Below are positions 30,668-47,466 of a stretch of DNA of 64,000 bases, one piece after another; position 1 is the first letter of the stretch; each line of letters starts with the position of its first letter. A program made the position numbers and the translations under genes. The DNA comes from Acetobacteraceae bacterium (GTDB taxonomy: Bacteria > Pseudomonadota > Alphaproteobacteria > Acetobacterales > Acetobacteraceae): assembly GCA_030041255.1 (NCBI GenBank), contig JASHOF010000045.1, positions 1 to 64,000 of the forward strand, written 5' to 3'. Under the pieces are notes generated by a model that worked only from the letters and a program-made list of their open reading frames with translations, had not been told where the DNA came from and did no database searches.

Positions 30668-30673
30668 AGTGAA

Positions 30674-31924
30674 TCAGATCAGGCTGGCATAGGGCAGGAA
30701 GTCCACCGCATCGCCGGGCGCGACCACGGTCACTCCCTCGGCGAGTTCTGCCAGCCCGTCTGTTTCGGTGAGCGAGCTCAGAATCCCGGCGCCGTCCTGC
30801 GGATGCTTGTGCGCGTCCAGCCGGCCATCCGCGGCGCGGACAAGGCGCACGCGCAGATATTCGCGCCGGCCGCTTTTCTTGCGATAGGCGAAGGCGGCAC
30901 GCACCGGTAACGGAACAGGCGGCGCGAGCATCGCCCCGCCGAGGGCGGCAATCAGCGGCCGTGCGACGTGGATGAAGGTGACGAACGCGGCGACCGGATT
31001 GCCCGGCAGAGAGATGAGCGGAGTGCCGGCGGCGATTCCCATCGCGACCGGCCGGCCGGGCTTGATGGCAAGGCGCCAGAACACCAGCCGGCCGAGCGCC
31101 TCCATCGCCTGGCGCACATGGTCTTCCTCGCCGGTGGAAACGCCGCCGGAGGTCAGCACGAGATCATGCGTCGCCGCCGCGGCCCGCAACGCCGCGGTGA
31201 TCTCCGCCCGCCCGTCCGGCAGAATCCCGCGATCGGAAACCTCCGCTCCCGTACGCCTGGCCAGCGCCGCCAGCAGCATGCGATTGGCATCGTAGAGCTT
31301 GGCGGGCGGCAATGGTTGCCCCGCTTCGACAACCTCGTCCCCGGTCGAGAACAAGGCCAGCCGGATGCGCCGCCTCACCGGCAGGCTGCGAAGACCGAGT
31401 GCCGCAGCGAGGGCGACATCCTGCGGCCGGAGCCGCCGCCCTGCCGGCAGCGCCTTGCTTCCCGCCGGCACGTCCTCGCCCCGCTTTCTCGTATTGGCCC
31501 CCTGGCGTAATCCGGCCGGCAGGTGCACGAGCCCGGCCGCGTCGGTCGCCACGTCCTCCTGCATGAAGACGGTGTCCGCACCCTCGGGCAAGGGTGCGCC
31601 GGTGAAGATGCGCCGCGCCGTGCCGGGCTTCAGACTGGTCCGGTCCGCTTCCCCGGCGGCGATGCGGCCCTCTACCGGCAGCGCCTTCGCATCTGCGAGA
31701 TCCGCCGCCCGTACGGCATAGCCGTCCACCGCCGAGTTGGCGAACGGCGGCAGATCGATGGGCGCGATCACATCCTCCGCCAGCACCCGCCCGTCGGCCG
31801 AGGAGAGCCCCACCGTCTCGATACCAACGCTCGGTTGCACATTGGCGGCAATGATCCGCATTGCCTCCTCGATCGGCAGCAGCGGCCCGCCGAAGGCGAA
31901 GCAGTCATCGGAAAGCTGGGCCAT
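30674..31924 (-). CDS. moeA: Molybdopterin molybdenumtransferase MoeA
   Basis: The 416-residue protein is the classical MoeA of the window, which ligates molybdate (or tungstate) to adenylated molybdopterin. Motifs: NSAVDGYAVRAADL, FTGAPLPEGADTVFMQED, LFSTGDEVVEAGQ, LTSGGVSTGEEDHV, LPGNPVAAFVTF and the C-terminal domain with RREYLRVRL. It is read opposite to the wtp-mobA genes and lies between mobB (12 bases upstream) and the BrnA-like gene. It is the third MoeA-type gene within 7 kb. Confidence 0.95.
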   Translation of the reverse strand: MAQLSDDCFAFGGPLLPIEEAMRIIAANVQPSVGIETVGLSSADGRVLAEDVIAPIDLPPFANSAVDGYAVRAADLADAKALPVEGRIAAGEADRTSLKPGTARRIFTGAPLPEGADTVFMQEDVATDAAGLVHLPAGLRQGANTRKRGEDVPAGSKALPAGRRLRPQDVALAAALGLRSLPVRRRIRLALFSTGDEVVEAGQPLPPAKLYDANRMLLAALARRTGAEVSDRGILPDGRAEITAALRAAAATHDLVLTSGGVSTGEEDHVRQAMEALGRLVFWRLAIKPGRPVAMGIAAGTPLISLPGNPVAAFVTFIHVARPLIAALGGAMLAPPVPLPVRAAFAYRKKSGRREYLRVRLVRAADGRLDAHKHPQDGAGILSSLTETDGLAELAEGVTVVAPGDAVDFLPYASLI

Positions 31925-31936
31925 CGAAGGTGCCCT

Positions 31937-32461
31937 TCACTCTCGCCCGGGCCAACGGATCTGCTGGACGGGCAGGGCTTCGGCCAGCACGAACTCGGCG
32001 ATTCTCTCCACTTCATCGAGGCCCAGAACCGGCACGCGCGCCTCCGGGAACGGTGTGTCGGAGACCACCGCCACGATCGACGGATCGCCCGTGTGAAGCG
32101 GCGCCTTTCCGTTTGCCCGGCGGTAGATCTCGAGCTTCGGATGGGGCTCGTGCTTGAATCCCTCCACCAGCACCAGGTCGGCAGGCCCCAGGCGGCACAG
32201 CAATTCCTCGAGCTTCGGCTCCGGCGCGCCACGCAACTCGTGCATCAGCGCCCAGCGATTGGCGGAGGCGACGAGCACTTCGCTCGCGCCGGCCGCCCGG
32301 TGCTCCCAGGAATCCTTGCCGGGCTGATCGACGTCGAAGCCGTGATGCGCGTGCTTCAGTGTCGATACCCTCAATCCGCGTTTCACCAGGACGGGAACTA
32401 AGCGGCAGAGGAGCGTCGTCTTGCCGGACCCATTCCATCCGGCAAGGCCGATTATGCGCAT
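31937..32461 (-). CDS. mobB: Molybdopterin-guanine dinucleotide biosynthesis adapter MobB
   Basis: A 174-residue P-loop GTPase, with the Walker A GWNGSGKTT near the N-terminus, VSTLKHAHHGFDVDQPGKDSW (MobB signature), LVLVEGFKHEPHPKLEIYR and a C-terminal IAEFVL helix. The frame extends to 32494, but the ATG at 32461 begins the family start MRIIGLAG. It assists MobA in cofactor maturation. It is divergent from the formate dehydrogenase operon (about 110 bases between starts), where a shared control region is plausible. Confidence 0.9.
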   Translation of the reverse strand: MRIIGLAGWNGSGKTTLLCRLVPVLVKRGLRVSTLKHAHHGFDVDQPGKDSWEHRAAGASEVLVASANRWALMHELRGAPEPKLEELLCRLGPADLVLVEGFKHEPHPKLEIYRRANGKAPLHTGDPSIVAVVSDTPFPEARVPVLGLDEVERIAEFVLAEALPVQQIRWPGRE

Positions 32462-32570
32462 CCGGCCGGGATCCGGGCGGTTCGGGACTTGCAAAACATG
32501 AGGCTAAAATGGAGGGTTCGGTTGATCGCAGCAAGCTTCCGGCATAGATGAGGGATTGAAGGGGCCTGAG

Positions 32571-34313
32571 ATGAGCCATACCGGTCTGGGTGGCGTGGGG
32601 GGCAACGGGGCCTCGCCACCCGAGCTGCACAGATTCCGGCATCCCGGCAGCGGGCGCGGCCACGCAAGGCCGACGCCAAAAGGGCGCCCGGTCGATCCGC
32701 GTGCGCACGATGAGATCGAAGCGCTGCTCGGCGACAGGCCGCGCCGGCGCGATCTCCTGATCGAGCATCTGCATTTGATCCAGGATGCAAAAGGGCAGCT
32801 TTCCGCAGCGCACCTGGCCGCACTCGCCGATCTCATGCGCCTTTCAATGACCGAGGTGTACGAGGTGGCGACCTTCTACGCGCATTTCGACGTCGTGAAG
32901 GAAGGAGAGGCGCCGATCCCGCCGCTGACCGTACGTGTCTGCGACAGCGTGACCTGCGCGCTGTTCGGATCGGAACAGCTTCTCGCCGATCTCGGAAAAC
33001 GCCTCGGCGCCGATGTGCGCGTGGTGCGCGCGCCCTGCGTCGGGTTGTGCGATCAGGCCCCGGCGGTCGAGGTCGGGCATCATTTCCTGCACCACGCCGA
33101 TGTCGGCGTGATCGAACAGGCGGTAAAGGCCGGCCGGCATCACCCCGCAATTCCTTCCTACATCGATCATGCCGCCTACGTCGCAGGCGGTGGCTATGCG
33201 CTGCTGGAACGCCTTCGCTCGGGTGGATTGACGTCAGAGGCGGTCTTGAAGGTGCTGGACGATGGCGCGCTGCGCGGTCTCGGTGGCGCCGGCTTTCCCA
33301 CCGGGCGCAAATGGCGCTCGGTCCTCGGTCAGCCCGCCCCGCGGCTGATGGCGGTCAATGCCGACGAAGGCGAGCCCGGGACGTTCAAGGATCGCCATTT
33401 CCTCTACAGCGACCCCCACCGCGTGCTCGAAGGCATGCTGATCGCCGCGCATGTCGTCGAGGCAACCGACATCTACTTCTACCTGCGCGACGAATATCCG
33501 ATCGGCCACGAGATCCTGCGCCAGGAACTGCCGAAACTCTCGCCCGGCGGCCCGCGCGTGCATCTGCGCCGCGGTGCCGGCGCCTATATCTGCGGCGAGG
33601 AATCCTCGATGCTCGAAAGCATCGAGGGCAAGCGCGGCCTGCCGCGCCAGAAGCCACCCTATCCGTTCCAGGTCGGGCTGTTGGGGCGCCCGACGCTGAT
33701 CAACAACGTCGAAACTCTCTACTGGGTGCGCGAGCTTCTCGAGAAGGGCGCCGTCTGGTGGACCGGCCACGGCCGCAACGGCGGGAAGGGGCTGCGCAGC
33801 TACTCGGTTTCCGGGCGCGTGCGGGATCCGGGTGTGAAGATTGCGCCGGCCGGCGTCACCGTCCATGAACTGATCGAGGAATTCTGTGGCGGCATGCAAC
33901 CGGGGCATCGCTTCGCGGCCTACCTGCCCGGCGGCGCCTCGGGCGGCATTCTTCCCGCCTCGATGGCCGACATCCCGCTCGATTTCGGCACGCTCGAAAA
34001 ATACGGCTGCCTGATCGGCTCTGCCGCCATCGTCGTGCTGTCCGACAAGGACGACGTGAAGGAAACGGCACGCAACCTGATGCGCTTTTTCGAGGATGAG
34101 AGCTGCGGCCAGTGCACACCCTGTCGCTTGGGTACGCAGAAGGCGCGCATCCTGATGGAACGCCCGGTCTGGGACCGCCCACTCCTCGGAGAGCTGGGCC
34201 AGGTGATGCGCGACGCTTCGATCTGTGGTCTCGGCCAGGCGGCACCCAACCCGGTCGATTGCGTGATCCGTTATTTCCCTGAAGCGTTTGCGAACGGAGA
34301 TGCCAGGCCATGA
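32571..34313 (+). CDS. fdh1B: NAD-linked formate dehydrogenase beta subunit, NuoE-NuoF fusion
   Basis: A 580-residue fusion. Residues ~45-170 are a NuoE/FdsG thioredoxin-like [2Fe-2S] domain with Cys124, Cys129, Cys156 and Cys160. Residues ~220-570 are NuoF/FdsB with the FMN site RGLGGAGFPTGRKWR, NADEGEPGTFKDRHFL, GEESSMLESIEGKRG, and [4Fe-4S] ligands in ESCGQCTPCRLG plus SICGLGQAAPNPV. The same fusion forms the beta subunit of the tungsten-containing FDH1 of Methylorubrum extorquens. It passes electrons from the alpha subunit to NAD+. It overlaps the alpha gene by four bases. Confidence 0.92.
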   Translation: MSHTGLGGVGGNGASPPELHRFRHPGSGRGHARPTPKGRPVDPRAHDEIEALLGDRPRRRDLLIEHLHLIQDAKGQLSAAHLAALADLMRLSMTEVYEVATFYAHFDVVKEGEAPIPPLTVRVCDSVTCALFGSEQLLADLGKRLGADVRVVRAPCVGLCDQAPAVEVGHHFLHHADVGVIEQAVKAGRHHPAIPSYIDHAAYVAGGGYALLERLRSGGLTSEAVLKVLDDGALRGLGGAGFPTGRKWRSVLGQPAPRLMAVNADEGEPGTFKDRHFLYSDPHRVLEGMLIAAHVVEATDIYFYLRDEYPIGHEILRQELPKLSPGGPRVHLRRGAGAYICGEESSMLESIEGKRGLPRQKPPYPFQVGLLGRPTLINNVETLYWVRELLEKGAVWWTGHGRNGGKGLRSYSVSGRVRDPGVKIAPAGVTVHELIEEFCGGMQPGHRFAAYLPGGASGGILPASMADIPLDFGTLEKYGCLIGSAAIVVLSDKDDVKETARNLMRFFEDESCGQCTPCRLGTQKARILMERPVWDRPLLGELGQVMRDASICGLGQAAPNPVDCVIRYFPEAFANGDARP

Positions 34314-37084
34314 GCGAGCCGATCCTGTTCGAGTTGGACGGACAGCAGGTAGAGGTGCGCCCGGGCGAGACGATCTGGCAGGTCGCCAACCGGCTGGGAA
34401 CCGAGATTCCGCATCTCTGCTACGCCCCGGAACCAGGTTATCGGGCGGACGGCAATTGCCGCGCCTGCATGGTGGAAATCGAAGGGGAACGTGTGCTGGC
34501 ACCTTCCTGCACCCGCAAGCCCACGCCCGGCATGCGTGTCAGGAGCGCCACCGAACGCGCGAAGAAGGCGCGCCGGATGGTGATGGAACTGCTGATCGCC
34601 GATCAGCCTGAGCGCGCAACATCCCACGATCCGACATCGAAGTTCTGGGCCTGGGCCGACCGCCAGGAGATCTCGGAAAGCCGCTTCCGGCACAGCGATC
34701 GCTGGGCACCCGATCCCAGCCACCCGGCGATGCGCGTCAACCTCGATGCCTGCATCCAGTGCAATCTCTGCGTGCGCGCCTGCCGCGAGGTGCAGGTGAA
34801 CGATGTCATCGGCATGGCCTTTCGTGGCGCGGGCAGCAAGATCGTGTTCGACATGGACGACCCGATGGGGCAGTCCACCTGCGTCGGCTGCGGCGAATGC
34901 GTGCAGGCCTGTCCGACCGGCGCACTCATGCCGGCGGCCTATCTGGACGAGAAAGGGACTCGCGTCGTCTGGCCGGACCGCACGGTGGACAGCATGTGCC
35001 CCTATTGCGGCGTCGGCTGCCAGGTGCACTACCACGTGAAGGATGAGAAGCTGGTCTACGCCGAAGGGCGCGACGGGCCGGCGAACCACAAACGCCTGTG
35101 CGTCAAGGGCCGCTTCGGCTTCGACTATATCCACCACCCGAACCGGCTGACGAAGCCGCTGATCCGCCGCGACGGCGTGGCGAAGAATGCCCTCGATCAG
35201 GTGGACCCCGCCAACCCCTTCACCCACTTCCGTGAGGCGACCTGGGAGGAGGCGCTGGATCGTGCCGGCGGCGGGCTCAAGCGGCTCCTCGACCGTCACG
35301 GCCCGGCATCGCTCGCCGGCTTCGGCTCGGCAAAGGGAACCAACGAGGAAGCCTACCTCTTCCAGAAGCTGGTGCGCACCGGCTTCGGGTCCAACAATGT
35401 CGATCATTGCACGCGGCTCTGTCATGCTTCCTCCGTCGCCGCGCTGATGGAGGGAATTAATTCCGGTGCCGTCACCGCACCGTTCGCGGCGGCCCTGGAT
35501 GCCGAGGTCATCATCGTGATCGGCGCCAATCCGACGGTGAATCATCCGGTCGCCGCGACCTTCATCAAGAACGCCGTCAAGAAGAACGGCGCCAAGCTGA
35601 TCGTGATGGATCCGCGCTATCAGGGTCTCTCGCGCCACGCCCTGCACCATCTGGCCTTCAAGCCGGGCAGCGACGTCGCGCTCTTGAACGCGCTCATCCA
35701 TACAATCATCGAGGAAGGTCTCACCGATCAGCAGTATATCGCCGCCTGGACCGAGGGCTTCGACGAGCTGAAGGAGCGGATCAAGGATTTCCCGCCGGAA
35801 AAAATGGCCGAGGTGTGCGGCATTCCGGCCAGGACCCTGCGCGAAGTCGCACGGCTCTACGCCCGCTCCCGTGCCTCGATCATCTTCTGGGGCATGGGCA
35901 TCAGCCAGCATATCCACGGCACGGACAATGCGCGCTGCCTGATCGCGCTGGCGATGATCACGGGCCAGGTCGGCCGCAAAGGCGCCGGACTGCATCCATT
36001 ACGTGGTCAGAATAATGTGCAGGGTGCCTCGGATGCCGGGCTGATCCCGAATGTCTATCCCGACTATCAGCGGGTCACCGATCCTGAGCTCCGCGCGCTC
36101 TTCGAGCAGCGCTGGAATACCAGGCTCGACCCGAAAGCGGGGCTCACCGTGGTCGAGATCATGCACGCGATCCACGCCGGCACCATCCGCGGCATGTACA
36201 TCCTGGGCGAGAACCCGGCGATGTCCGATCCCGACCTCAACCATGCCCGCGAGGCGCTGGCCAAGCTCCGGCATCTCGTCGTGCAGGATCTCTTCCTCAC
36301 AGAAACCGCCTGCTATGCCGACGTCGTGTTGCCCGCCTCGAGCTTCGCCGAAAAGTCCGGCACTTTCACCAATACCGACCGGCGGGTGCAACGGGTGCGG
36401 AAGGTGGTGGACTCGCCGGGGGAGGCGCGCCAGGACTGGGGGGTCATCCAGGAGATCGCCCGGCGCATGGGGCTCGACTGGAATTATACCGCCCCGGACG
36501 AGGTCTATGCCGAGATGGCCTCGACCATGCCCTCCCTCAACAACATCACCTGGGAGAGGCTGGAGCGCGAGGGTGCCGTCACCTATCCCGTCGATGGTCC
36601 GGACAAGCCGGGCAACGAGATCATCTTCGCCTCCGGTTTTCCGACCAGGAGCGGGCGCGCCAGGATCGTGCCGGCCAAGGTTCTGCCGCCCGACGAACTG
36701 CCGGACGACAAGTATCCGTTGGTGCTGACCACCGGTCGTGTCCTCGAGCATTGGCACACCGGTGCCATGACCCGTCGCGCCAGCGTGCTCGATGCGCTGG
36801 AACCGGAAGCAATCGCCGTGATGGCGCCGCGCGAGATGCACCGCATGGGGCTCGCACCCGCCGACATGATCCGTCTCGAAACCCGTCGTGGCGTGATCGA
36901 ACTCAAGGTGCGCGCCGACCGGGACGTCCCCGAGGGCATGGTGTTCATGCCGTTCTGCTATGCCGAGGCAGCGGCCAATCTGCTCACCAACCCGAATCTC
37001 GATCCCTGGGGCAAGATCCCGGAATTCAAGTTCTGCGCTGCACGCGTGACCTGCGCGGAGAAGCTGTCCACGGCAGCCGAGTAA
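34310..37084 (+). CDS. fdh1A: NAD-linked formate dehydrogenase alpha subunit (W/Mo-bis-MGD)
   Basis: A 924-residue catalytic subunit that oxidises formate to CO2. Order: [2Fe-2S] domain (Cys37, Cys50, Cys53, Cys67), two [4Fe-4S] ferredoxin sites (DACIQCNLCVRACRE; STCVGCGECVQACPTGAL), the MGD-domain [4Fe-4S] (SMCPYCGVGCQVHYHV), and the bis-MGD domains. The metal ligand is Cys371 followed by His372 (RLCHASS), so this is a cysteine, not selenocysteine, enzyme. The C-terminal domain has ENPAMSDPDL and GRVLEHWHTGAMTRR. No Tat signal: cytoplasmic. With the NuoEF fusion and wtpABC upstream it most resembles the tungsten FDH1 type; the metal itself cannot be read from sequence. Confidence 0.93.
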   Translation: MSEPILFELDGQQVEVRPGETIWQVANRLGTEIPHLCYAPEPGYRADGNCRACMVEIEGERVLAPSCTRKPTPGMRVRSATERAKKARRMVMELLIADQPERATSHDPTSKFWAWADRQEISESRFRHSDRWAPDPSHPAMRVNLDACIQCNLCVRACREVQVNDVIGMAFRGAGSKIVFDMDDPMGQSTCVGCGECVQACPTGALMPAAYLDEKGTRVVWPDRTVDSMCPYCGVGCQVHYHVKDEKLVYAEGRDGPANHKRLCVKGRFGFDYIHHPNRLTKPLIRRDGVAKNALDQVDPANPFTHFREATWEEALDRAGGGLKRLLDRHGPASLAGFGSAKGTNEEAYLFQKLVRTGFGSNNVDHCTRLCHASSVAALMEGINSGAVTAPFAAALDAEVIIVIGANPTVNHPVAATFIKNAVKKNGAKLIVMDPRYQGLSRHALHHLAFKPGSDVALLNALIHTIIEEGLTDQQYIAAWTEGFDELKERIKDFPPEKMAEVCGIPARTLREVARLYARSRASIIFWGMGISQHIHGTDNARCLIALAMITGQVGRKGAGLHPLRGQNNVQGASDAGLIPNVYPDYQRVTDPELRALFEQRWNTRLDPKAGLTVVEIMHAIHAGTIRGMYILGENPAMSDPDLNHAREALAKLRHLVVQDLFLTETACYADVVLPASSFAEKSGTFTNTDRRVQRVRKVVDSPGEARQDWGVIQEIARRMGLDWNYTAPDEVYAEMASTMPSLNNITWERLEREGAVTYPVDGPDKPGNEIIFASGFPTRSGRARIVPAKVLPPDELPDDKYPLVLTTGRVLEHWHTGAMTRRASVLDALEPEAIAVMAPREMHRMGLAPADMIRLETRRGVIELKVRADRDVPEGMVFMPFCYAEAAANLLTNPNLDPWGKIPEFKFCAARVTCAEKLSTAAE

Positions 37085-37509
37085 CCGGAGTCCGTCTCCA
37101 CCGTTACCTCGGCCCTGGCTGGGCGATCCTGCCATGCAACCAAACGTACCCGGCAACCACCCGTGGATGAACCGCGCGAAGGCACTTGAACAAGGCTCCC
37201 ATGCTGGGCTAGCCTGATTGTTACAAAGCGCGTTACCATGCGCGTCTCGTGACTGCGGTGATGGAGTCCGCCACTTTCGCCATCTGGGCTGATGACTCCT
37301 AACCATGCCTTCCTCGGTCCACCACGAGGCGGAGGAGGGTAAGGGAGGGGTTGTATGGTCGGGCTCATCCTGAGGCGCCCTCCGCGGCGCCAGCCTGGGG
37401 CGTTGAATGCGCGTCGCGGTCGGTTCGTTTGCAATGCGATCCTGCCGGTACCGCTGACCTCCCCTGGGCCCCCTCTGGCCGCGCGTCGGCCGAGCAGTTG
37501 GTAGGACCC
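37085..37509 (+). other. 425-base gene-free region between fdh1A and the Ehr-like operon
   Basis: The longest gene-free stretch in the window. It contains a weak promoter-like pair (TTGAAC at 37186-37191, 18 bases, TAGCCT at 37210-37215). There is a short hairpin CCTCG/CGAGG (37312-37329) and a GC hairpin GGCGCC-N6-GGCGCC (37374-37391). The part from about 37300 to 37400 looks like the GC-rich intergenic palindromic elements common in alphaproteobacteria. A frame open upstream of the next gene gives no recognisable protein. Confidence 0.55.
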
Positions 37510-38466
37510 ATGCTCGTCCACATCGGCTACAACCTGCTGCAAGTCGCGGTGGTGATCGGATTCGCGCCCCTGGTGGAGGGGGTGCTGGCGCGGCTCAAGG
37601 AAATCGTTCAGTCCAAGCGCGGGCCGAGCATCTTCCAGCCGTACCGTGACCTCGCCAAGCTCCTGTGCAAGGACGAGATCGTCTCCCGCCGCAGCTCATG
37701 GATCTTTCGCACGGCACCGTACGTCGCCTTCACGGCGCCGGTCTTCGTCGCCCTTCTGATCCCCGTGCTGACACGATACCCGCTCTTCTTCGCTTTCATG
37801 GGCGATATGCTGGGGGTCGGGTTCGTGCTCGCATTCGGTGGCTTCTTTGTCGCGCTTGCGGCCGTGGATAGCGGCAATCCCTACGGGCCCATGGGCGCCA
37901 GCCGCACGCGCATGGTCGGTTTCCTGACCGAGCCCGTATTCCTGATCGTCTTCATGACCATTTCGCTCGTCGCCGGTTCCACCATTCCCTACATCGTGCA
38001 GGGCGAGTGGGTGCGCTCTTCAGCCGCGTTCTTCGCACCGTGGCACGTGCTCCTGGTGATTGCGTTCCTGCTGCTGATCCTCGCCGAGGACGGGCGGCTG
38101 CCGGTCGACAGCGCGAGCGGCCATTTCGAGCTGGCGATGATCGAGAAATCGAAGTCCCTGGAATACTCGGGTCGGGGTGCGGCACTCATGAAGTGGGGCG
38201 GCGCGATGAAGCTGTTCGTCCTGTTGGTCGTCTTCCTCAATGTGCTGGTCACCCCGTGGGGCCTGGCCGGCCCCGCGGACATATCGCTCGCGGGTGTTCT
38301 CCTCGCCGTGCCGCTGGTGCTGTTCAAGATGCTGATCTTTCTGGTCGTATTGGTCGTGATCGAATCCTCGCTTGCGAAGCTCCGCCTGTTCCGGATCTCG
38401 GAATTCACCGGTGCAGCCTTCGTCATCGCCGTGGTGGCGATGGTTTCCCGCTTGTTCGCCGCTTAG
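37510..38466 (+). CDS. Ehr/hydrogenase-4-like membrane subunit HyfC (NuoH homologue)
   Basis: A 318-residue integral membrane protein with about eight helices. The conserved cytoplasmic loops of the NuoH/HyfC family are visible: VQSKRGPSIFQPYRDLAKLL after the first helix, EDGRLPVDSASGHFELAMIEKS (acidic loop near the quinone/energy-coupling site) and LEYSGRGAALMKW. In complex I this subunit links the electron-transfer arm to the pumping arm. It is the first gene of a six-gene unit that ends at 45153; GTAGGA precedes the ATG. A frame open upstream to 37351 was not used. Confidence 0.9.
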   Translation: MLVHIGYNLLQVAVVIGFAPLVEGVLARLKEIVQSKRGPSIFQPYRDLAKLLCKDEIVSRRSSWIFRTAPYVAFTAPVFVALLIPVLTRYPLFFAFMGDMLGVGFVLAFGGFFVALAAVDSGNPYGPMGASRTRMVGFLTEPVFLIVFMTISLVAGSTIPYIVQGEWVRSSAAFFAPWHVLLVIAFLLLILAEDGRLPVDSASGHFELAMIEKSKSLEYSGRGAALMKWGGAMKLFVLLVVFLNVLVTPWGLAGPADISLAGVLLAVPLVLFKMLIFLVVLVVIESSLAKLRLFRISEFTGAAFVIAVVAMVSRLFAA

Positions 38467-38480
38467 CGGATCATACAGAG

Positions 38481-39155
38481 GTGCCCTCGACATCCCTGCT
38501 TCTCAGTATCGAAGCGCTGGCCGCCGGAGTCTTCCTGCTCACGGCGCTCGGAACGGTTGCGGCCCGCCAGCTTCTCACCTGCTTCCATCTCTTCGTCTGG
38601 CAATCCCTCCTCCTCAGCGCCTCGGCGGCATTGCTCGGGCTTGCCCTCTCTTCACCGCATCTCCTGGCCGTGGCTGCCATCACGCTCGCCACCAAGACCA
38701 TGCTGATCCCCTGGCTGCTGAGAAAGACCGTGCATGACGAGGTGTACCGCATTCGCGAGATCGACCAGGTTCTCAATATCCCGACCTCGCTCCTGCTGGC
38801 GCTTGCCTTGGCAGGCGTCGGTTACGTCTTTTTTGTCGAGATGCTGGGGGGCATGGCAGTTCCGGCCTATGCCCTGGTCAATCTGCCGATCGGCGTTGCC
38901 GTGCTGTTGCTCGGTGCGTTCACTCTCACGGTTCGCCGTGAGGCCGTCGCCCAACTGCTCGCCTTGCTGGTGGCCGAGAACGGGGTGTTCTTCGCCGGCA
39001 TCGCGATCGTTCCCAACCTGCCTGCGATCGCCGAATTGGCGGCAGCGGTGGATGTCCCGGTCTATACGCTCGTGGTCGGCCTCCTCACACGGCGGATCCA
39101 CAGCGAACTGGGCACGACAATGGTCGGCCGTCTGACTGCTCTCAGGGAGGATTAG
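38481..39155 (+). CDS. Ehr/hydrogenase-4-like membrane subunit HyfE (NuoK-like)
   Basis: A 224-residue protein with about six hydrophobic helices. It resembles HyfE: the N-terminal half includes ITLATKTMLIPWLLRKTVHDEVYRIRE, the C-terminal half VRREAVAQLLALLVAENGVFFAGI, whose Glu within a helix matches the NuoK-like ion-path Glu. GTG at 38481 is chosen, 14 bases after the previous stop; the initiation site is weak, so translational coupling is likely. The next gene starts five bases later behind an AGGGAGGA site. Confidence 0.85.
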   Translation: MPSTSLLLSIEALAAGVFLLTALGTVAARQLLTCFHLFVWQSLLLSASAALLGLALSSPHLLAVAAITLATKTMLIPWLLRKTVHDEVYRIREIDQVLNIPTSLLLALALAGVGYVFFVEMLGGMAVPAYALVNLPIGVAVLLLGAFTLTVRREAVAQLLALLVAENGVFFAGIAIVPNLPAIAELAAAVDVPVYTLVVGLLTRRIHSELGTTMVGRLTALRED

Positions 39156-39159
39156 CACC

Positions 39160-40629
39160 ATGCTGCTGGCCGCGATCCTGCTGGTCCCTGTCTGCACGAG
39201 CCTCGTCGTGCTCGTCTCGCCGTTCCGGCGGTGGGCCGGCTGGCTGACGATGCTGGCCATGGCCGCCACGCTCGCGCTGGCCGCGGCAGCAGTGCAGGCG
39301 ACCCTGGGGAGCGGGGCGGTCTCGGGCGCGGCCGGATGGCTCGTCTGCGATGGGCTCGGCGCACTGATCGTAGTACTCGTCGCATTCGTTGCCTTCACGG
39401 CAGCGGTCTATTCCAACGGCTACCTGCGCCGGCGGGCGTCGCATGCCCAGAACGATGATGGGGGGAGCTATTATCCCCTCTTCAACATCTTCGTCGCATC
39501 CATGCTGGCAGTGCCGCTGATGGCCAACGTCGCGCTGCTGTGGGTGGCGCTTGAGCTGACGACCCTGCTTTCGGCGTTCCTTGTCGGCTTCGAGAGCACG
39601 CCCGAAGCCTTGGAGGCGGCGTGGAAATACGCGATCCTGACCACCCTTGGCGCCATCATCGCGCTGCTCGGTGTCCTGATCCTCTACTGGGGGACACGGA
39701 TCGCCGGCGAGCAGGCGTTCACCTGGAACGAACTGATCGCCGCTGCCCCGGCGATGCCGCCGACCCTGGTCTGGCCGGCATTCCTGCTGATCCTGATCGG
39801 CTTCGGCACCAAGGTCGGCCTGGTGCCGATGCACACCTGGCTTCCGGACGCACATAGCCAGGCCCCGTCGCCCATCTGTGCGTTGTTGTCGGGCGTCGAG
39901 GTTTCGACGGCGCTCTACGTCATCCTGCGCCTCTTCGCGGTCCTGAGCCGTGTCCCCGGTTCCGAAGCCGGCCCGTGGTTCATCGTCTTCGGAGTGCTTT
40001 CGGTTGGCGTGGCAACGATCCTCATGGTCCAGGTTCGGGACTACAAGCGGATGTTCGCATTTTCGACCGTCGAGCACATGGGGATCATTCTGCTCGCCGT
40101 GGGCCTCGGCAGTGTCGATGCGCGTTTCGCTGCGGCCTACCAGATCACCGCTCATGCGCTCGCCAAGTCGTTCTGCTTTTTTGCTGCGGGCCTGATCGTC
40201 CTGGCGCTCGGCGAGCAGCGGATCGCCGCCGTCAGGGGGCTGGGGCGCCGGTCGCCGGTGGCCGCCGTCTCCTTCCTCGCGGGTGCCCTCGCCATCACCG
40301 GGATGCCCCCTTCCGCGGTCTTTGCGAGCGAGTTGCTGATCCTCAAGGCCGGTCTGGCCCGCGGACAATATCTCGTCGTCGGCTTCCTCGCACTGTTCAT
40401 CGTCATCGGCTTTGCCGCCATCATGCGGCACGCGACACGGATGACTTTCGGCAAAGAGGTCGATATGGCCGAGGCGCCCGTCGGCCGGCTCTGGTCGGCT
40501 GGTGCCGCGCCCGCCTCCTGCCTCACGGCGCTCGTAATCACGGCAATACCGCTGGTGGTATTCGGACTGTGCATGCCGGCCGGGCTTGCCGGGCTGCTCA
40601 ATCTGGCCGGCACGGCGATGGGCAGGTAA
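39160..40629 (+). CDS. Ehr/hydrogenase-4-like antiporter subunit HyfF (NuoN/NuoL family)
   Basis: A 489-residue proton-antiporter-like membrane protein with about 14 helices. The family's pumping residues are present: Glu132 in LWVALELTTLLSAFLVG, Lys218 in GFGTKVGLVPMHTWLPDAHS, and a further Lys in VRDYKRMFAFSTVEHMG. The APSPICALLSGV segment is typical of HyfF and related proteins. The subunit is thus likely competent for ion translocation. It lies between HyfE-like and the large-subunit gene in the six-gene unit. Confidence 0.9.
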   Translation: MLLAAILLVPVCTSLVVLVSPFRRWAGWLTMLAMAATLALAAAAVQATLGSGAVSGAAGWLVCDGLGALIVVLVAFVAFTAAVYSNGYLRRRASHAQNDDGGSYYPLFNIFVASMLAVPLMANVALLWVALELTTLLSAFLVGFESTPEALEAAWKYAILTTLGAIIALLGVLILYWGTRIAGEQAFTWNELIAAAPAMPPTLVWPAFLLILIGFGTKVGLVPMHTWLPDAHSQAPSPICALLSGVEVSTALYVILRLFAVLSRVPGSEAGPWFIVFGVLSVGVATILMVQVRDYKRMFAFSTVEHMGIILLAVGLGSVDARFAAAYQITAHALAKSFCFFAAGLIVLALGEQRIAAVRGLGRRSPVAAVSFLAGALAITGMPPSAVFASELLILKAGLARGQYLVVGFLALFIVIGFAAIMRHATRMTFGKEVDMAEAPVGRLWSAGAAPASCLTALVITAIPLVVFGLCMPAGLAGLLNLAGTAMGR

Positions 40630-40639
40630 GACCGCCATC

Positions 40640-42241
40640 ATGGACGAGAGCGTCGCTGCCCCCGTGACCGGTTCCTCCGCACTCGCTGCCTTCGGTGAAG
40701 AAACCTGGCAGGGGCGAGTGCGCGTCGAGCAGGTCGGCAGTACGTATGTGCTTCATTGCGCTGTCGGCAATCTGGCAGGTCTTTGTGAGCGGTTGATGAG
40801 CGGCGGTGAGCACATGTTCGCGACACTCGTCGTCGAAGACGAGAGTGTGCAGTGGCTTTTGACCTACGTCTTTTATCCGGTCAAAGGTGGTGCCTTCACG
40901 CACGTCGTCATCCGCCAACCGATCTCGGAACGGCACCTGCCCTCGATCGCCGCGGTCGTTCCGGCCGCGGACTGGCACGAGCGCGAGGCAGCCGATCTGT
41001 TCGGACTGGTGTTCGACGGGCATCCGCGCCTTGGCGCGTTCGTTCTGCACGACGGCTGGTCGAAAAGCGCCCAGCCGATGCGACACGGGTTCGATATCCG
41101 CGATCGGAGTTCCATACCCACCAGGCGTGACGTTCCCGAGCCTAACCGGAGCCTCGATGCACCGGGCTCCTTCTCGATGCCGGTCGGTCCCGTCTTTTCC
41201 GACCTCGCCGAATCGGCCCATTTCCGGATCGAGACGCTGGGTGAGGATGTGAGCCGGATCGCAATCCGGTTCTTCTACAAGTACCGCGCCGTCGAGAAGC
41301 TGGCCGAGGGGCAACCGGTCGACCGGGCCTTGCTGCTGGCAGAGCGGTTCTCCGGCGCGGCGGCTTTCGCGCATGGCCTCGCCTTCTGCCAGGCCATCGA
41401 AGACATCGCCCACCTCACGGTCCCGCCGCGCGCCATGGTGTTGCGTGCCATGCTGGCGGAGCTCGAGCGGTTGCGCAGCCACGCGGCGACCATCACCGGC
41501 ATCTGCAATTCGACCGCGCTTGCCGTCGCGACCAGCCAGGCAGCAATGATCGAAGAGGATCTGCTGAGACTTTCGGCGGTAGCAAGCGGGCACCGCTACC
41601 TGTTCGGGATGGTCACGCCCGGTGGGCTCGCCATCGATCTTCCCGACGAACTTTGCCGGCAGACCGCGGCCGAGGCGGAGGTGATCGCTCGTCGCATGGC
41701 GCGGCTGCATCGGCTGCTGCGCCAGTCGAGCAGCTTTCTCGACCGGCTGGAGGAGGTGGGCGCCACCTCCAGCGCGGCGGCCACGCTGCTCGGACTGGTC
41801 GGGCCCATTGCCCGCGCATCCGGCGTCGCGCGGGATATCAGGGTCCTGTTTCCCTATGCTGCCTACAGGGAATATCCGCCGCACGTTCCGATCGAGGTGC
41901 AGGGCGACGGTTATGCGAGACTCAGAGTATTGTTTCGCGAGGCGGCGGAGTCGGCAGCGCTGATGGCGCGACTGGCCGCCCGGATCCCTGGCGGACCGGC
42001 CTCTCTCGCCGATATCGGACTGTGCCAGGGCGCTGCGCTCGGCGCTGTCGAAGCGCCGCTCGGCGCCGCGTTCCATTGGGTTCGTCTCGGCGCGGACGGC
42101 CGTGTGCTGCGCTACCGCATCGCTCCGCCCTCGTTTGCCAACTGGCCCGGTTTCCAGTTTGCAGCAGAGGAATTCGCGTTCCAGGACTTTCCGATCATCC
42201 TCGCGACATTCGGCCTCTCCAACGCCGAATCTGACCGATAG
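40640..42241 (+). CDS. Ehr-type large subunit (HycE/HyfG-like, NuoC-NuoD fusion) without NiFe ligands
   Basis: A 533-residue soluble subunit. The N-terminal ~170 residues form the 30-kDa (NuoC) domain with HEREAADLFGLVFDGHPRL; the rest is the 49-kDa (NuoD/large hydrogenase) domain, with AESAHFRIETLGEDV and YKYRAVEKLAEGQ. In NiFe hydrogenases the ligands lie in RVCGIC and DPCxxC. Here they read ERFSGAAAFAHG (Ser238 and Ala241 in place of Cys) and QDFPIILATFG (residues 515-525, no Cys). Hydrogen chemistry is therefore not expected. The subunit resembles Ehr complexes, which sit between hydrogenases and complex I. Confidence 0.9.
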   Translation: MDESVAAPVTGSSALAAFGEETWQGRVRVEQVGSTYVLHCAVGNLAGLCERLMSGGEHMFATLVVEDESVQWLLTYVFYPVKGGAFTHVVIRQPISERHLPSIAAVVPAADWHEREAADLFGLVFDGHPRLGAFVLHDGWSKSAQPMRHGFDIRDRSSIPTRRDVPEPNRSLDAPGSFSMPVGPVFSDLAESAHFRIETLGEDVSRIAIRFFYKYRAVEKLAEGQPVDRALLLAERFSGAAAFAHGLAFCQAIEDIAHLTVPPRAMVLRAMLAELERLRSHAATITGICNSTALAVATSQAAMIEEDLLRLSAVASGHRYLFGMVTPGGLAIDLPDELCRQTAAEAEVIARRMARLHRLLRQSSSFLDRLEEVGATSSAAATLLGLVGPIARASGVARDIRVLFPYAAYREYPPHVPIEVQGDGYARLRVLFREAAESAALMARLAARIPGGPASLADIGLCQGAALGAVEAPLGAAFHWVRLGADGRVLRYRIAPPSFANWPGFQFAAEEFAFQDFPIILATFGLSNAESDR

Positions 42242-42250
42242 GAATCGGCA

Positions 42251-43006
42251 ATGACGAAATGGGTCTGGGAAGGTCTGACCAGCGGGATCCGGACCACCCG
42301 CTATCCCGCGCGCGAGGAACACACCCCCGGCGTTTCACCGGGGCGGCCGCGCGCACGACAAGGGAACGAGGCCAGCCGCAACGCCTTGGCAGGCGACTGC
42401 CCGACCGATGCCATCACCGCCGGCGAAGACGGTAGCGCCATCGATTACCGGCACTGCATCCACTGCCTCCGCTGCTCGCGAACCACTTCGCCTGCCGTCG
42501 ATTGGGAATCCGGTTACGAATGGGCCGCCGAGGCTGAAATGGCCCGGGTCGCACATCGGCTCGGCCGCTTCTTCCACCGCTCGCTCAACATTCGTTTCGT
42601 CGATGCCGGCGCCTGTGGCGCCTGCATGGGCGAGGTGCGGCAGATCAACAGTCCCTACTACAACATACATCGGCTCGGCTTCTTTCTCACGCCGACCCCG
42701 CGCAATGCCGATATCCTGCTGGTCGCAGGCCCGGTCACGCTGCCGATGCAGCAGGCGTTGCGCGACACCTACGAGGCCATGCCGCCACCCAAGCGCGTGG
42801 TTGCGATGGGGGTTTGCGCTCTTTCCGGCGGTGTGTTCGGAAGCGGCGCGGCTGTGGCAGGCGGCCTGAACGATGTGCTGCCGGTGGATGTGATGATTCC
42901 CGGTTGTCCGCCCCCGCCGCTTGCCATTCTCCACGGGCTCCTGGTGGCGGTGGAGCGGAAGCCGCCCCAGCCCCTGATTTCTCCCTCCGGCGGATCCTCT
43001 CCGTGA
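42251..43006 (+). CDS. Ehr-type small subunit (HyfI/NuoB-like) with fused half-ferredoxin
   Basis: A 251-residue iron-sulfur protein. The C-terminal ~140 residues are the NuoB/HycG domain with proximal [4Fe-4S] (N2-like) ligands Cys122, Cys125, Cys189 and Cys219 (GACGACMGE, GVCALSGG, PGCPPPP). The N-terminal part has Cys50-Pro-Thr-Asp-Ala-Ile and then Cys69-x2-Cys72-x2-Cys75: in order and spacing these are the four ligands of the second cluster of a bacterial 2[4Fe-4S] ferredoxin, with the first cluster missing. No separate NuoI/HyfH gene exists in the operon, so this fused piece probably replaces it. TAGGAATCGG precedes the ATG; the stop overlaps the next GTG. Confidence 0.9.
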   Translation: MTKWVWEGLTSGIRTTRYPAREEHTPGVSPGRPRARQGNEASRNALAGDCPTDAITAGEDGSAIDYRHCIHCLRCSRTTSPAVDWESGYEWAAEAEMARVAHRLGRFFHRSLNIRFVDAGACGACMGEVRQINSPYYNIHRLGFFLTPTPRNADILLVAGPVTLPMQQALRDTYEAMPPPKRVVAMGVCALSGGVFGSGAAVAGGLNDVLPVDVMIPGCPPPPLAILHGLLVAVERKPPQPLISPSGGSSP

Positions 43007-45153
43007 ACGCCATCCAGATCCCGCTTGTCGCGTACTTTTTGCTGGCGGCAACAGGCGCGATTGCCGCGGTATTTGTTTCCGCTGAGCGCAATCCGCCGGT
43101 TCTCGCGGCCCTGGGTGCCGCTTCTTCGGTGGCGCTGATCGCCGCCGGCGGAACTTGCCTCGTTCTGGACACGTCGGCCACCTTCGCCGCCTGGCAGTTC
43201 TTACCGTTCGGGACAATCCGTTTCGGAGTGGACCCTCTGTCGGCACTGTTCGTTCTCATCACCGGCGCGGTTGCGCTGCCTGTTTCCATCTTCTCCTGCG
43301 CTTATCTCCGGCGCTACCAGGAGGAATACAGCCTCGGCTATTTCGGCGTGCTGTACCACCTGTTCCTGGCTGCCATCGTACTCGTGCTGCTCGCGCGCGA
43401 CATCTTCTCGTTCCTGGTCGCCTGGGAGCTGATGTCGGTTCTGAGCTATCTGCTCGTCGCCTATGAAAACGACAATGATGATTCGGCGCAGGCTACCTTT
43501 GTCATGCTCGCCATGAGCGAAGCGGGGATGATCCTGGCCGCCGGTGCCCTTCTGCTGCTTGCCAACGGTGCGGGATCGACCGATTTTGCGGCGATCCGCA
43601 CGACTGCCTCCGGACTTGATCCGGGCATCCGCTGGGCCGTCTTCCTGCTTTCCTTCATCGGATTCGCGGTGAAGGCCGGGCTGGTTCCGGTCAATAGCTG
43701 GCTGCCGCGGGCACACCCGGTGGCGCCGACGAATGTCTCGGCGCTGCTCTCGGCGGTGATGGTCAATCTGGGAATCTATGGGATCGTGCTCGTCAACCTC
43801 CGCCTGATGCCGCCGAGGGGCACGGCAGCCGGCGCATTGGTACTGGCGGTGGGCAGCATTTCGGCGCTGATCGGAATCCTCTACGCCACGATCGAATCGG
43901 AGCTGAAGAGACTGCTTGCGCACAGCACGATCGAGAATATGGGAATCGTCGCCGCCATGCTCGGTGCGGCGATGGTCTTTCTGGCCGAGGGTGACGGCCT
44001 GCCGGCTGCGCTCGCTCTGGTCGCGGCTTTTTATCACCTGGCAAACCACTCGCTTTACAAGGCGCTGCTGTTCACCGGCACGGGCGCTGCCCAGACCGGA
44101 AGCGGCACTCGCGACCTCGACCGGATGGGTGGCCTGATCCATCGCATGCCAGCGACGGCACTGCTTTTCCTCGCTGGCGTGCTGGCGATTTCGGCGCTGC
44201 CGCCGTTCAACGGGTTCGTCAGCGAATGGCTCGCATTGCAATCGGTCCTCCGCTCCGTCGTTCTCGCATCGAAGCCGCTCCGCCTCGTCTTTGCGTTGTC
44301 CGGCGCTTTGCTCGCGCTCACCGCGGGACTTGCGATCACCTGTTTCGTCAAGGTGTTCGCCATGGGCTTCCTGGGCATCCCGCGCACACGCGAGGCGGCA
44401 CGTGCCACCGAGGCGCCGGTGGCGATGCGCGTGGCAATGGGCCTGCTCGCCGCCGCCTGCTTCCTGCTTGGGATCTTGCCGACCTTTGTGATCCCGGAGT
44501 TCGACCACGTCGTGCGCGAGCTGGGAAGATCGAGCGCGACCGCCGCGCTGGTCCCGCCGTTTTTCCAGGTCGGTGCAGGTGGCGGCCACGGGTTGAGCGC
44601 TGCATTCGTGAGCGACTTCCACGCGATCGGCGCTCAGGTAGGAAAGGGATTGGTACCGGGGCGTGGGCTGGTCCTCCTGCTGCAGGGAGGCGCGAGCAAT
44701 CCGGTCGTGTTTGCGATTTCACCTGCGTACACCGTGATCGTGTTCCCCATCCTGCTCGGGCTGGTCTTCGCCATCTTCCGCCTGCTGACGCTCGGGCGGC
44801 GGATGGCGCGCCGCGCCGTCTGGGTCGGCGGGCTCGCTCACTTCGTCCCGGCACTCACCTACACGGCCACCGGTTTTGCCAACCCGGTGCGCGTCATCTT
44901 CCGGGCGGTACTGCGGCCCACCATGAACGAGCAGACGATCGAGGAAATGCCGGCGTTCTTCCGACCGACGGTACATCGCGAAATGCAGGAGATTCATGTC
45001 GTCGATCGGCTGCTCCTCGGCCCTGTGGCGGTGTGTCTCAGGGGCCTCGCGAGTACGTTGAGACGCATGCACAGCGGTTCGGTCAATCTTTATGCGGTCT
45101 ACGTGCTGGCGACCCTGCTCGTTGCATTCGCGATCTGGGCAGGAATCCGCTGA
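43003..45153 (+). CDS. Ehr/hydrogenase-4-like antiporter subunit HyfB (NuoL family)
   Basis: A 716-residue membrane protein, about 16 helices, with the NuoL/HyfB pumping residues Glu142 (VAWELMSVLSYLL) and Lys224 (GFAVKAGLVPVNSWLPRAHP) plus ESELKRLLAHSTIENMG and AFYHLANHSLYKALLF. The last ~120 residues are an amphipathic extension as in HyfB. GTG at 43003 overlaps the previous stop (GTGA). It is the last gene of the unit; downstream 213 bases separate it from a convergent polyferredoxin gene. With HyfF-like it gives the complex two antiporter-type subunits. Confidence 0.9.
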   Translation: MNAIQIPLVAYFLLAATGAIAAVFVSAERNPPVLAALGAASSVALIAAGGTCLVLDTSATFAAWQFLPFGTIRFGVDPLSALFVLITGAVALPVSIFSCAYLRRYQEEYSLGYFGVLYHLFLAAIVLVLLARDIFSFLVAWELMSVLSYLLVAYENDNDDSAQATFVMLAMSEAGMILAAGALLLLANGAGSTDFAAIRTTASGLDPGIRWAVFLLSFIGFAVKAGLVPVNSWLPRAHPVAPTNVSALLSAVMVNLGIYGIVLVNLRLMPPRGTAAGALVLAVGSISALIGILYATIESELKRLLAHSTIENMGIVAAMLGAAMVFLAEGDGLPAALALVAAFYHLANHSLYKALLFTGTGAAQTGSGTRDLDRMGGLIHRMPATALLFLAGVLAISALPPFNGFVSEWLALQSVLRSVVLASKPLRLVFALSGALLALTAGLAITCFVKVFAMGFLGIPRTREAARATEAPVAMRVAMGLLAAACFLLGILPTFVIPEFDHVVRELGRSSATAALVPPFFQVGAGGGHGLSAAFVSDFHAIGAQVGKGLVPGRGLVLLLQGGASNPVVFAISPAYTVIVFPILLGLVFAIFRLLTLGRRMARRAVWVGGLAHFVPALTYTATGFANPVRVIFRAVLRPTMNEQTIEEMPAFFRPTVHREMQEIHVVDRLLLGPVAVCLRGLASTLRRMHSGSVNLYAVYVLATLLVAFAIWAGIR

Positions 45154-45366: not shown

Positions 45367-47403
45367 CTATTCCGGATCCTCGCGCGTTCGCGTTCGCTCG
45401 CGCAAATAGTCCTCGGTCGTACGTGGCGGCGGGCGGAGTGGCGCCGCATGTGGGTCAAACCCTTCGTTGATCACTGCCTCGACGCGACAGTTCTCGCACA
45501 TTTGCAGCACACGTAGCCGCTTCTGTCCCTCCGCCCCCGCGAACATCCAGTGCCGACCCGACAATCTCGAGACCACCCGCTCAATGCTGCTTCTGGTCCC
45601 GAACGGCTTCCCGCAGGCGATGCAGCAGAGGGGCTCCTCCTCCTTGATCACGCGGCGGTCATTGCGCCACGCAGCGAAATCGAGCTGCGGTTTGAGCCTG
45701 ATCACCTTCTCCGGGCAGGTGGCGGCGCAGAGACCGCATTGCACGCAGAGGCTTTCGGTGAAGCGCAACGCCGGGCGCTCGGGATGATCGGTGAGCGCGC
45801 CGGTGGGGCAGGCATTGACACAGGAGAGGCAGAGTGTGCATCTTTCCGCATCCACCTCCAGCCCACCGAACGGCGCCCCGGCAGCGAGCGGCACGACATC
45901 GCTCGGGTCCGGAGCAACGCGATGGAGCTCACGCATTGCGAAGACCAGCATCTCCCGCTTGCCGCCGATCGGCAGGAAGCTGGCGGCAGCGCGCGCACGG
46001 GTTGCGGACGCGTAACCGTCGAGCGAGGCTCTCAGCGAGTCGGGGTCGTCGGTCTCGATCACCGATACGATCCCGCTGCCATAGCCAAGGCCGCGCAGAA
46101 TCGCTCCCGCGGTATCGACGAGCTGGGTGAGCGCAGCGATGTCGTGCCGCGGCCTGGCGCGGAGGAGGAAACGCACGCCCGCCGCGCCGTAGGCAAACAA
46201 GGCGGCAACCGCTTCGAGCCCTACCGAAGTCACTTCGTTGACCGCGACCGGTAACACGTTCGCGGGCAGCCCGCCGGCGAAGCGCGAAAGCGCGTCGATC
46301 AGCGGCTCACCGTAATCGCGATCGTGGAACAGGACAAGCCCGTCCGTGCCGCCCGCAGCCGCATAGGCGAGCATCATCGCCCGCAGCTTGCGCATGAGAG
46401 CGTCGGCCGGTGGCAGCGCGTAGCCTGCTGCGCCGGTTGGGCAAACCGATGCGCAACTGCCGCAGCCGGCACAGATTTTCGGGTCGATGGCAACATGATC
46501 GCCTGCCGGTCTGATGGCGCCGGTCGGGCAGAGATCGAGGCAGCGGGTGCAGCCGGTTATGCGCGAACGCGAATGGGCACAGAGGTTGTCCGCGAAAGCG
46601 ATGAAGCGCGGTTTGTCGAACGTGCCGACGAGATGAGACGCCTCGAAAATCACGCGTTCGACGGCAACCGCGTCGCGCGGATCGGCGCGCAGATAGCCGG
46701 GGCGGAGAGTACCGGCAGGAAACAGCGGCGCGCCGCCGGAAAGATCGACAATGAGATCGGAGTGCGAGATCGCGTCGTCCCGGCTCGGGCCGAAAACAAG
46801 CCGTTCCCGCGACGATGGCGCCGGCTTGGCGAAATCGTCGATGCGCAACTCGAATGCGCCGAGATGCCCGCTGGCCCCGGCGATCGTCCCCCGGACCACG
46901 GGAAAATCGCGTGCGCGCGGCGGCATCACCGCCTGCGGCCGGCTGAGCAGGACGGTGATATCGAGATGATCGGCAAGTCGGCGCCCGGCCTCGAGTGCGA
47001 CCTCGTCGCGGCCGTAGATGAGGGCCACGCCGCGGCTCTCCATGGTGACCTGGGACACCGCGGGGAGAGGCTCGGCAGCGGCGGCGAAGAGAGCGGCCAT
47101 CTTCGGCCCTGCCTTGCTGCCTTCGGCGGACCAGCCGGCAGTCTCCCTCACATTGGCGAATTGAACCTGGCCGGAGGCGCCCAATTCCGCAGCCAATTCC
47201 GTGAAAAGCCGCAACTCCTGCGTGCAGCCAACCGTCACCGGCCGGCCCGTTGCGAGCAGTGACTTCAATCGCTCGAGCTCCCGCCCGCAAAGCTGCTCGG
47301 CAGTGTGAAGGTCACCGCCGCATCCCTTCGCAAGAGCCCGCTTGTCGAGCGACATGGTTGCCTCGCAGGAGCAGGCAATCACCGCGCGTTGCGCGTCCGG
47401 CAT
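45367..47403 (-). CDS. Large multi-cluster ferredoxin associated with formate dehydrogenase
   Basis: A 678-residue cytoplasmic iron-sulfur protein. It carries four ferredoxin-type [4Fe-4S] sites in two pairs: TGCTRCLDLCPTGA with KICAGCGSCASVCPTGA (about residues 284-330), and ERCTLCLSCVNACPTGAL with SLCVQCGLCAATCPEKVI (about 525-575). Extra Cys pairs occur near the end (LCCIACG; MCENC), and the N-terminal ~60 residues contain ACSC, GCGG, LCG and GCTQ. Similar proteins lie beside DUF3305/DUF3306 genes and periplasmic FDH genes in many proteobacteria; their role is unknown, perhaps electron or sulfur transfer during maturation. ATG at 47403 follows GGGGTGA; a frame up to 47460 is open. Confidence 0.82.
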   Translation of the reverse strand: MPDAQRAVIACSCEATMSLDKRALAKGCGGDLHTAEQLCGRELERLKSLLATGRPVTVGCTQELRLFTELAAELGASGQVQFANVRETAGWSAEGSKAGPKMAALFAAAAEPLPAVSQVTMESRGVALIYGRDEVALEAGRRLADHLDITVLLSRPQAVMPPRARDFPVVRGTIAGASGHLGAFELRIDDFAKPAPSSRERLVFGPSRDDAISHSDLIVDLSGGAPLFPAGTLRPGYLRADPRDAVAVERVIFEASHLVGTFDKPRFIAFADNLCAHSRSRITGCTRCLDLCPTGAIRPAGDHVAIDPKICAGCGSCASVCPTGAAGYALPPADALMRKLRAMMLAYAAAGGTDGLVLFHDRDYGEPLIDALSRFAGGLPANVLPVAVNEVTSVGLEAVAALFAYGAAGVRFLLRARPRHDIAALTQLVDTAGAILRGLGYGSGIVSVIETDDPDSLRASLDGYASATRARAAASFLPIGGKREMLVFAMRELHRVAPDPSDVVPLAAGAPFGGLEVDAERCTLCLSCVNACPTGALTDHPERPALRFTESLCVQCGLCAATCPEKVIRLKPQLDFAAWRNDRRVIKEEEPLCCIACGKPFGTRSSIERVVSRLSGRHWMFAGAEGQKRLRVLQMCENCRVEAVINEGFDPHAAPLRPPPRTTEDYLRERTRTREDPE

Positions 47404-47466
47404 CGGTTGGTCACCCCAGCGGAGGAGGTTCAGCCCGTGCACGCTTCTTGTCCGGGCCATGATTCG

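Follow-up and report, generated by a model that had tools for sequence, protein, structure and literature searches.

Energy-converting hydrogenase-related (Ehr) complexes, described from Nitrospira, Sulfobacillus, and Riflemargulisbacteria, consist of complex I and group 4 hydrogenase subunits that have lost the NiFe ligands and kept the antiporter-like subunits. Their function is called unknown in papers (for instance PMC10284858). Here, we describe an Ehr operon from an Acetobacteraceae bacterium (assembly GCA_030041255.1, contig JASHOF010000045.1), analyzed in a stretch of 64,000 nucleotides, the window, in which six complex I/hydrogenase-like genes lie on the + strand at 37510-45153, with start codons uncertain for some. 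Compared with the previously described complexes, this one belongs to a clade of its own, carries a ferredoxin-type (Fd) domain fused to NuoB, and has a fluoride riboswitch upstream. Fluoride regulation of the operon is well supported by the comparison of related loci, and we propose that the operon is probably an emergency ion pump against fluoride poisoning, not a means of burning formate.

Homologous subunits form the formate hydrogenlyase (FHL) of Escherichia coli, whose HycE is the best Protein Data Bank (PDB) match of the window's large subunit by sequence and whose HycG is the closest match of the NuoB domain by fold. Unlike the window, E. coli FHL has RxCGxC and DPCxxC motifs as well as maturation genes, and it has no fluoride switch. 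By analogy, the nearest characterized counterpart is Pyrococcus MBS, a ferredoxin-fed sulfane-sulfur reductase that has lost the NiFe site and has a pumping membrane arm. Its proximal cluster is held by three cysteines, as in half of clade A (defined below), but it differs in that a different Cys is out of reach and in an extra distal Mrp-like module (PMC7684303). For other lineages, Matheus Carnevali et al. put forward in 2019 a formate dehydrogenase (FDH)-Ehr complex, where Ehr, NuoE/NuoF-like, and FdhA genes likewise occur in one genome (PMC6349859). That pairing is the claim there, whereas in the window's lineage it is limited to one genus.

A "formate hydrogenlyase" of the fluoride riboswitch regulon was reportedly described by Baker in 2012. 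The same term names a common fluoride-riboswitch gene in PMC2864571, PMC11139923, and PMC8752731, and one review explains the switch-linked gene by formate fermentation. In Weinberg 2010 (PMC2864571), an FHL-like operon likewise stands behind crcB-motif RNA. Contrary to this wording, the switch-linked complexes compared here have neither a hydrogenase site nor FDH and are not FHL; the "formate hydrogenlyase" of these papers is probably the very set of genes that we read as NiFe-less Ehr. Among the literature matches listed, no paper joined fluoride riboswitches with Ehr complexes. In clades A and B, the inducer of an Ehr whose function is called unknown would be written into its leader RNA. 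Should the pump reading hold, cells under fluoride stress turn to a complex-I-like pump dedicated to it, and one function of Ehr can be tested by giving sodium fluoride (NaF) to a culture.

Subunits, redox sites, and phylogeny of the complex

Homologous loci were picked by HycE similarity, not by the riboswitch. One scan of named genomes gave the best 80 of many more matching stretches, and 52 of these (L036-L086 and L101), with HycE 40-89% identical, are treated as the window's orthologous set, clade A. Clade B is made up of a paralogue in the window's own genome (L146), L147-L150, Rhodopila globiformis DSM 161 (L110, with its switch at 243-304), and the plasmids L179 and L182. The paralogue is a second Ehr operon (G000:C15:51956-56672) with the same gene order, a HycE about 39% identical, and a fluoride riboswitch directly before it. 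The order nuoH-hyfE-hyfF-hycE-fd/nuoB-hyfB holds in nearly all clade A loci, as far as contigs reach, whereas the other Ehr operons read here place hyfB (or nuoB-hyfB) before nuoH. At L067, no nuoH was recognized, and the switch stands before hyfE. At L040 and L076, two divergent Ehr operons of this kind lie head to head, and the switch has matches on each strand.

An earlier note on this DNA had listed NuoH-, HyfE-, HyfF-, NuoCD-, NuoB-, and NuoL-like genes, and all six were found at that place and in that order. Five of the subunits match complex I or hydrogenase-4 families in Pfam or NCBIfam, and the HyfE-like subunit has a weak NCBIfam match below the cut-off. Most of the large subunit can be aligned with HycE (7z0s_E, E 2.5e-57), and a model of the NuoB domain matches HycG with Z 20.6 (FdNuoB residues 105-239 compared). 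In the large subunit, RFSGAA takes the place of RxCGxC (RVCGIC in HycE), and there is no DPCxxC. The lack of both motifs in a HycE-like subunit points to an Ehr-type complex and not to a hydrogenase, in agreement with the class and the absent NiFe ligands reported in the earlier note. The motifs that mark FHL and the group 4 NiFe hydrogenases are likewise found in 0/53 clade A and 0/7 clade B large subunits, and on this count we reject the idea that sequencing errors erased the ligands of a hydrogenase. The maturation gene for HypD was not found in the own genome, although it is present in 28 of the 50 genomes searched (the HypD, CLC, and carrier-wide CrcB searches left out L073, L085, and L101).

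Nor does the large subunit have the residues expected of respiratory complex I. The window has Ala and Gly where Nqo4 has His38 and Tyr87, which we take to be quinone-site residues of the 49-kDa subunit of respiratory complex I, and none of the 53 clade A rows has His or Tyr in these columns. The own genome has its complex I elsewhere, on contig C133, and no fluoride switch was found in 18 kb around its nuoD; an ordinary complex I is accordingly rejected as an identity for the operon. Judged by its residues, the complex resembles a redox pump that has no NiFe site and no canonical quinone site.

Other sites for electrons and ions are retained. All four cysteines of the Fd domain are kept in 46/48 clade A rows (the two others are gapped) and in 6/6 clade B rows; two full ferredoxin Cys sets occur in the six B rows and in L084, and a single set in the other A rows. 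Three cysteines of the proximal cluster are kept in 47/48 clade A rows, with one gap. The fourth (FdNuoB residue 219) is Cys in 22/48, the window included, so that the window, like clade B, has four proximal-cluster cysteines. The pump residues to which the earlier note had drawn attention, Glu132/Lys218 of HyfF and Glu142/Lys224 of HyfB, are there and hardly vary among relatives, and the ion-path residues of NuoH are nearly invariant too.

The earlier note had also proposed a phylogeny of the HycE-like subunit. In the resulting tree, clades A and B unite in a single clade (SH-aLRT 99) that groups with other Ehr (98) and apart from the FHL hydrogenases (99). This tree was a quick search of 65 rows without bootstrap, with 30 of the 53 clade A rows and with Mbh, Mbs, and Ech not included; several rows have long branches, L182 and L178 above all, and FHL joins the long outgroup branch. 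Clade-specific residues agree with the tree, as evidenced by HyfB E173 (45/45 in A, 5/5 in B, 0/32 in others) and NuoH Y125 (50/50 in A, 6/6 in B, 0/35 in others).

The fluoride riboswitch and its association with the operon

The riboswitch of the window sits in the gap between fdsA and nuoH, directly upstream of nuoH (Table 1). A search of the whole window with Rfam at gathering scores returned nothing, and the switch surfaced only by an E-value threshold on this short gap. Three helices, including the pseudoknot, and the conserved core are recognizable on the same strand as the operon; the aptamer of the sister species, at 36.0 bits, exceeds the gathering score of 34. A long hairpin in the leader takes up the GACUCC strand of the aptamer in both the window (z -2.15, which is modest, and -1.89 in a longer stretch) and the sister-species locus L036 (z -4.29, which is stronger). 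Such an aptamer-sequestering hairpin would suit an ON switch, though no U-run follows it.

Switches at other loci were found with a model, R2, built from 30 Rfam-called aptamers with the window excluded. In these aptamers, 95.9% of the cells of the three helices, pseudoknot included, are paired, and 8 of 13 pairs show changes on both sides; 0 of 500 shuffles reached this level of pairing or covariation. Because 21 of the 30 training aptamers lay within scanned loci, R2 is partly circular, even though each had been called by Rfam over the gathering score beforehand. A further model, R3, was therefore built from the other nine aptamers and run on 57 sources, namely, 8 clade B loci and, counting the window, 49 assessable loci of clade A, leaving out L042, L043, L067, L083, and L100, which were not assessable. 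The window aptamer scores 39.0 bits with R2 and 34.3 bits with R3.

With R2, 43 of the 49 assessable clade A loci have a same-strand switch no more than 700 nt upstream of nuoH, at a median gap of 162 nt. The exceptions are five loci with the switch at 0.8-2.0 kb and CrcB, DUF190, or dynamin genes between, and L063, with the switch at 2.6 kb and enolase between. All eight clade B loci have a same-strand switch within this distance of nuoH, with a NUDIX gene intervening in Mycobacterium branderi (L182). In other Ehr operons, by comparison, a switch precedes nuoH in 0/44 (0/33, 0/3, and 0/8; L230 and L233, which have no nuoH, were left out), and none occurs anywhere in all 53 of these loci, which matters because hyfB, not nuoH, leads most of the other Ehr operons. 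Switch position was not assessable at four loci of clade A, one of clade B, and seven C loci. True FHL loci have a switch in 0/13 and both NiFe motifs in 13/13, ten of them being closely related to one another, with 67-97% identity to E. coli HycE. The independent model R3 recovers 38/49 clade A loci within 700 nt and 8/8 clade B loci, and it has no match in the 66 control loci (other Ehr plus FHL); the five clade A loci lost with R3 (L050, L055, L058, L060, and L078) are called by Rfam itself.

At the level of genomes, a match to RF01734 was found in 49 of the 50 searched, comprising the own genome and 49 reached through clade A loci, with L085 and L101 left out. The own genome alone has seven matches, five of them over the gathering score, including one upstream of the C15 paralogue. 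The five matches besides those of the two Ehr operons lie at C20 ~20900-22800 and C161 ~14400-16250 (L173 and L174), near HEAT-repeat, HIT-family, dynamin-type, and MutS-like genes, as named by reading the sequence.

Neighboring genes provide another pointer to fluoride, as clade A loci recurrently have CrcB, DUF190, enolase, dynamin-type GTPase, and MutS-like genes nearby (families set from representatives). Among clade A loci that extend to 12 kb or more, 26 of 37 have such neighbors, as do 4 of 6 clade B loci, and they were found in 0/40 other Ehr and 0/13 FHL loci, where diverged homologues could be missed, the queries having been drawn from A and B loci. Two clade B loci, L179 (NZ_CP143553.1, Burkholderia multivorans) and L182 (NZ_AP022607.1, M. 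branderi), are plasmid-borne fluoride islands around the Ehr operon, with several switches next to pyrophosphatase, DUF190, dynamin, enolase, or MFS genes. As far as these comparisons reach, the association between riboswitch and operon is old, spans many phyla, and is seen only in clades A and B.

Proposed function and competing readings

The reading that we favor, and hold to be reasonably probable, is a fluoride-induced, redox-driven ion pump that offsets the acidification borne by hydrogen fluoride (HF) and the accompanying loss of proton-motive force. HF would enter the cell and give off H+ and F-, and F- would block enolase and other enzymes. Binding of F- to the leader RNA would turn the operon on. 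A low-potential carrier, possibly ferredoxin-like, would then deliver electrons to the Fd domain and on to the proximal cluster under HycE, and their transfer onward to an acceptor would drive H+ (or Na+) out via HyfF and HyfB. This pumping would restore cytoplasmic pH and the proton-motive force, on the latter of which fluoride export would depend. One review places the homeostasis of pH and proton-motive force, together with Na+/H+ antiporters, at the center of fluoride defense (PMC11139923). Whereas regulation in this scheme rests on comparison, we infer the pumping, the donor, and the acceptor.

Several observations weigh against such a pump. The window aptamer stays below the gathering score. 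Its core departs from the consensus, the conserved A-rich stretch ahead of the third helix is missing, and its affinity may be different as a result. Residue 219 of FdNuoB is Asn, Asp, His, Gln, or Ser in 24/48 clade A rows (2 are gapped), the operon has no gene for an electron donor, and the ion and the pumping direction are not readable from sequence. The clade is also rare in even samples. In that of the family, clade A or B loci occur in 4 of 100 genomes besides the own (G058, G065, G094, and G098), and outside the own genus, the clade was recognized in none of 289 class and 398 phylum genomes. Twenty-two other genomes of the class and phylum samples had matches, and the 10 examined, 2 from the class and 8 of 20 from the phylum, hold other Ehr without a switch. 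Clade A carriers are nearly all metagenome-assembled genomes (MAGs), by title in every case except L086, whose title is silent; isolates in clade B include L110, L179, and L182. Separately, a fragment of 435 nt in G094:C425, from the family sample, comes from another clade A-like HycE, 72% identical.

The earlier note had read the module as a formate-driven pump, with electrons fed by the adjacent FDH. The fused NuoEF and FdsA that it placed before the module are indeed there, and FDH adjoins the operon on the same strand in both the window and the sister species; an FDH-Ehr complex, moreover, has the precedent proposed in PMC6349859. However, of the 38 orthologous loci whose upstream sequence spans 3 kb or more, a single one has FDH beside the operon. 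That locus, L036, belongs to the same-genus sister species, and there the FdsA match ends at 5165, the switch starts at 6693, and an open reading frame (ORF) resembling a SatP-type transporter, judged by eye, intervenes. In the window, too, the riboswitch stands between FDH and the module. A neighborhood survey was the refutation test that the earlier note had named for its own proposal, and FDH conservation proves absent outside the own genus among these loci. The formate-driven pump is rejected on this neighborhood, and with it a supply of electrons from FDH becomes quite improbable; we infer that FDH is a chance neighbor in this genus. The note contained neither the riboswitch nor the second module on C15, and its formate reading was made without them.

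A redox-driven pump must also be weighed against readings that accept the fluoride switch. If the redox arm were a relic, the complex could act as a secondary antiporter, exchanging Na+ and H+ in an Mrp-like manner without electron flow. The loss of NiFe and quinone-site residues, and of the fourth proximal-cluster ligand in half of clade A, would fit this, as would the simple Na+/H+ antiporters common in the fluoride regulon (PMC11139923), but the Fd-type cysteines and three proximal-cluster cysteines are kept in essentially all rows, and we regard a relic as unlikely. The non-Cys fourth ligand could also mean that the complex serves mainly for MBS-like chemistry at the proximal cluster, with ion pumping secondary, since the three-Cys proximal cluster of MBS is its catalytic site (PMC7684303). 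Such a fluoride-induced reductase seems unlikely, given that the window and clade B keep four cysteines and that the neighbors suggest no substrate. Direct export of fluoride, or its exchange, driven by redox energy comes to mind because the own genome has seven switches and two switch-linked Ehr operons yet no recognizable Fluc or CLC-F exporter: CrcB/Fluc has no match in it, nor in the sister species G100, and the three CLC proteins of the own genome show, in the parts matched, none of the CLC-F signatures searched for (GNNLI/GMGLI and GREG). The own genome, although estimated to be 100% complete, is a draft in 187 contigs, however, and the subunits are of the H+/Na+ type. CrcB scores over the cut-off in 24 of the 50 carrier genomes searched and lies directly beside the operon in 11 of 52 clade A loci, and we consider direct export very unlikely. 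Hardly any credence attaches to the wording of the fluoride literature, by which fluoride would induce a true FHL (PMC2864571, PMC11139923, and PMC8752731). Homology to the subunits of E. coli FHL speaks for it, but the missing NiFe ligands rule it out for these loci, and true FHL loci have no switch.

Features of the window

Table 1. Features of the Ehr locus, with positions in the window
Feature	Position	Strand	Basis or remark
NuoEF fusion + FdsA formate dehydrogenase	32571-37084	+	neighbor, not judged part of the system
Fluoride riboswitch aptamer (RF01734)	37248-37308	+	31.1 bits, E 1.6e-6 in 901 bases, gathering score 34
Leader with long hairpin (possible expression platform)	37309-37509	+	takes up the aptamer's GACUCC strand
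NuoH/HyfC-like membrane subunit	37510-38466	+	PF00146
HyfE/NuoK-like membrane subunit	~38463-39155, start uncertain	+	NF008556, 54.9 bits, cut-off 136 not reached
HyfF-like antiporter-type subunit	39160-40629	+	PF00361; E132, K218 conserved
NuoCD/HycE-like large subunit without NiFe ligands	40640-42241, start 40586 or 40640	+	family and PDB match
Ferredoxin-type domain (one 4Fe-4S set) fused to NuoB/HycG-like subunit	42251-43006	+	family match, Cys alignment
HyfB/NuoL-like antiporter-type subunit	~43003-45153, start uncertain	+	PF00361; E142, K224 conserved

On the opposite strand, at 45370-47442, a 691-aa protein with several 4Fe-4S domains faces the Ehr operon; among the compared loci, it has a high-identity match (95%) only in L036. 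The window is rich in molybdenum-related genes at 26676-37084, 51712-54612, and 58719-61136, where MoeA genes, the FDH, a second molybdopterin oxidoreductase, and a molybdenum-cofactor protein of the xanthine/CO-dehydrogenase type are found. Molybdenum-cofactor and transport-like genes also precede a crcB-DUF190-Ehr arrangement in L054 and L055 (~0-5900), which come from MAGs titled Proteobacteria and Betaproteobacteria.

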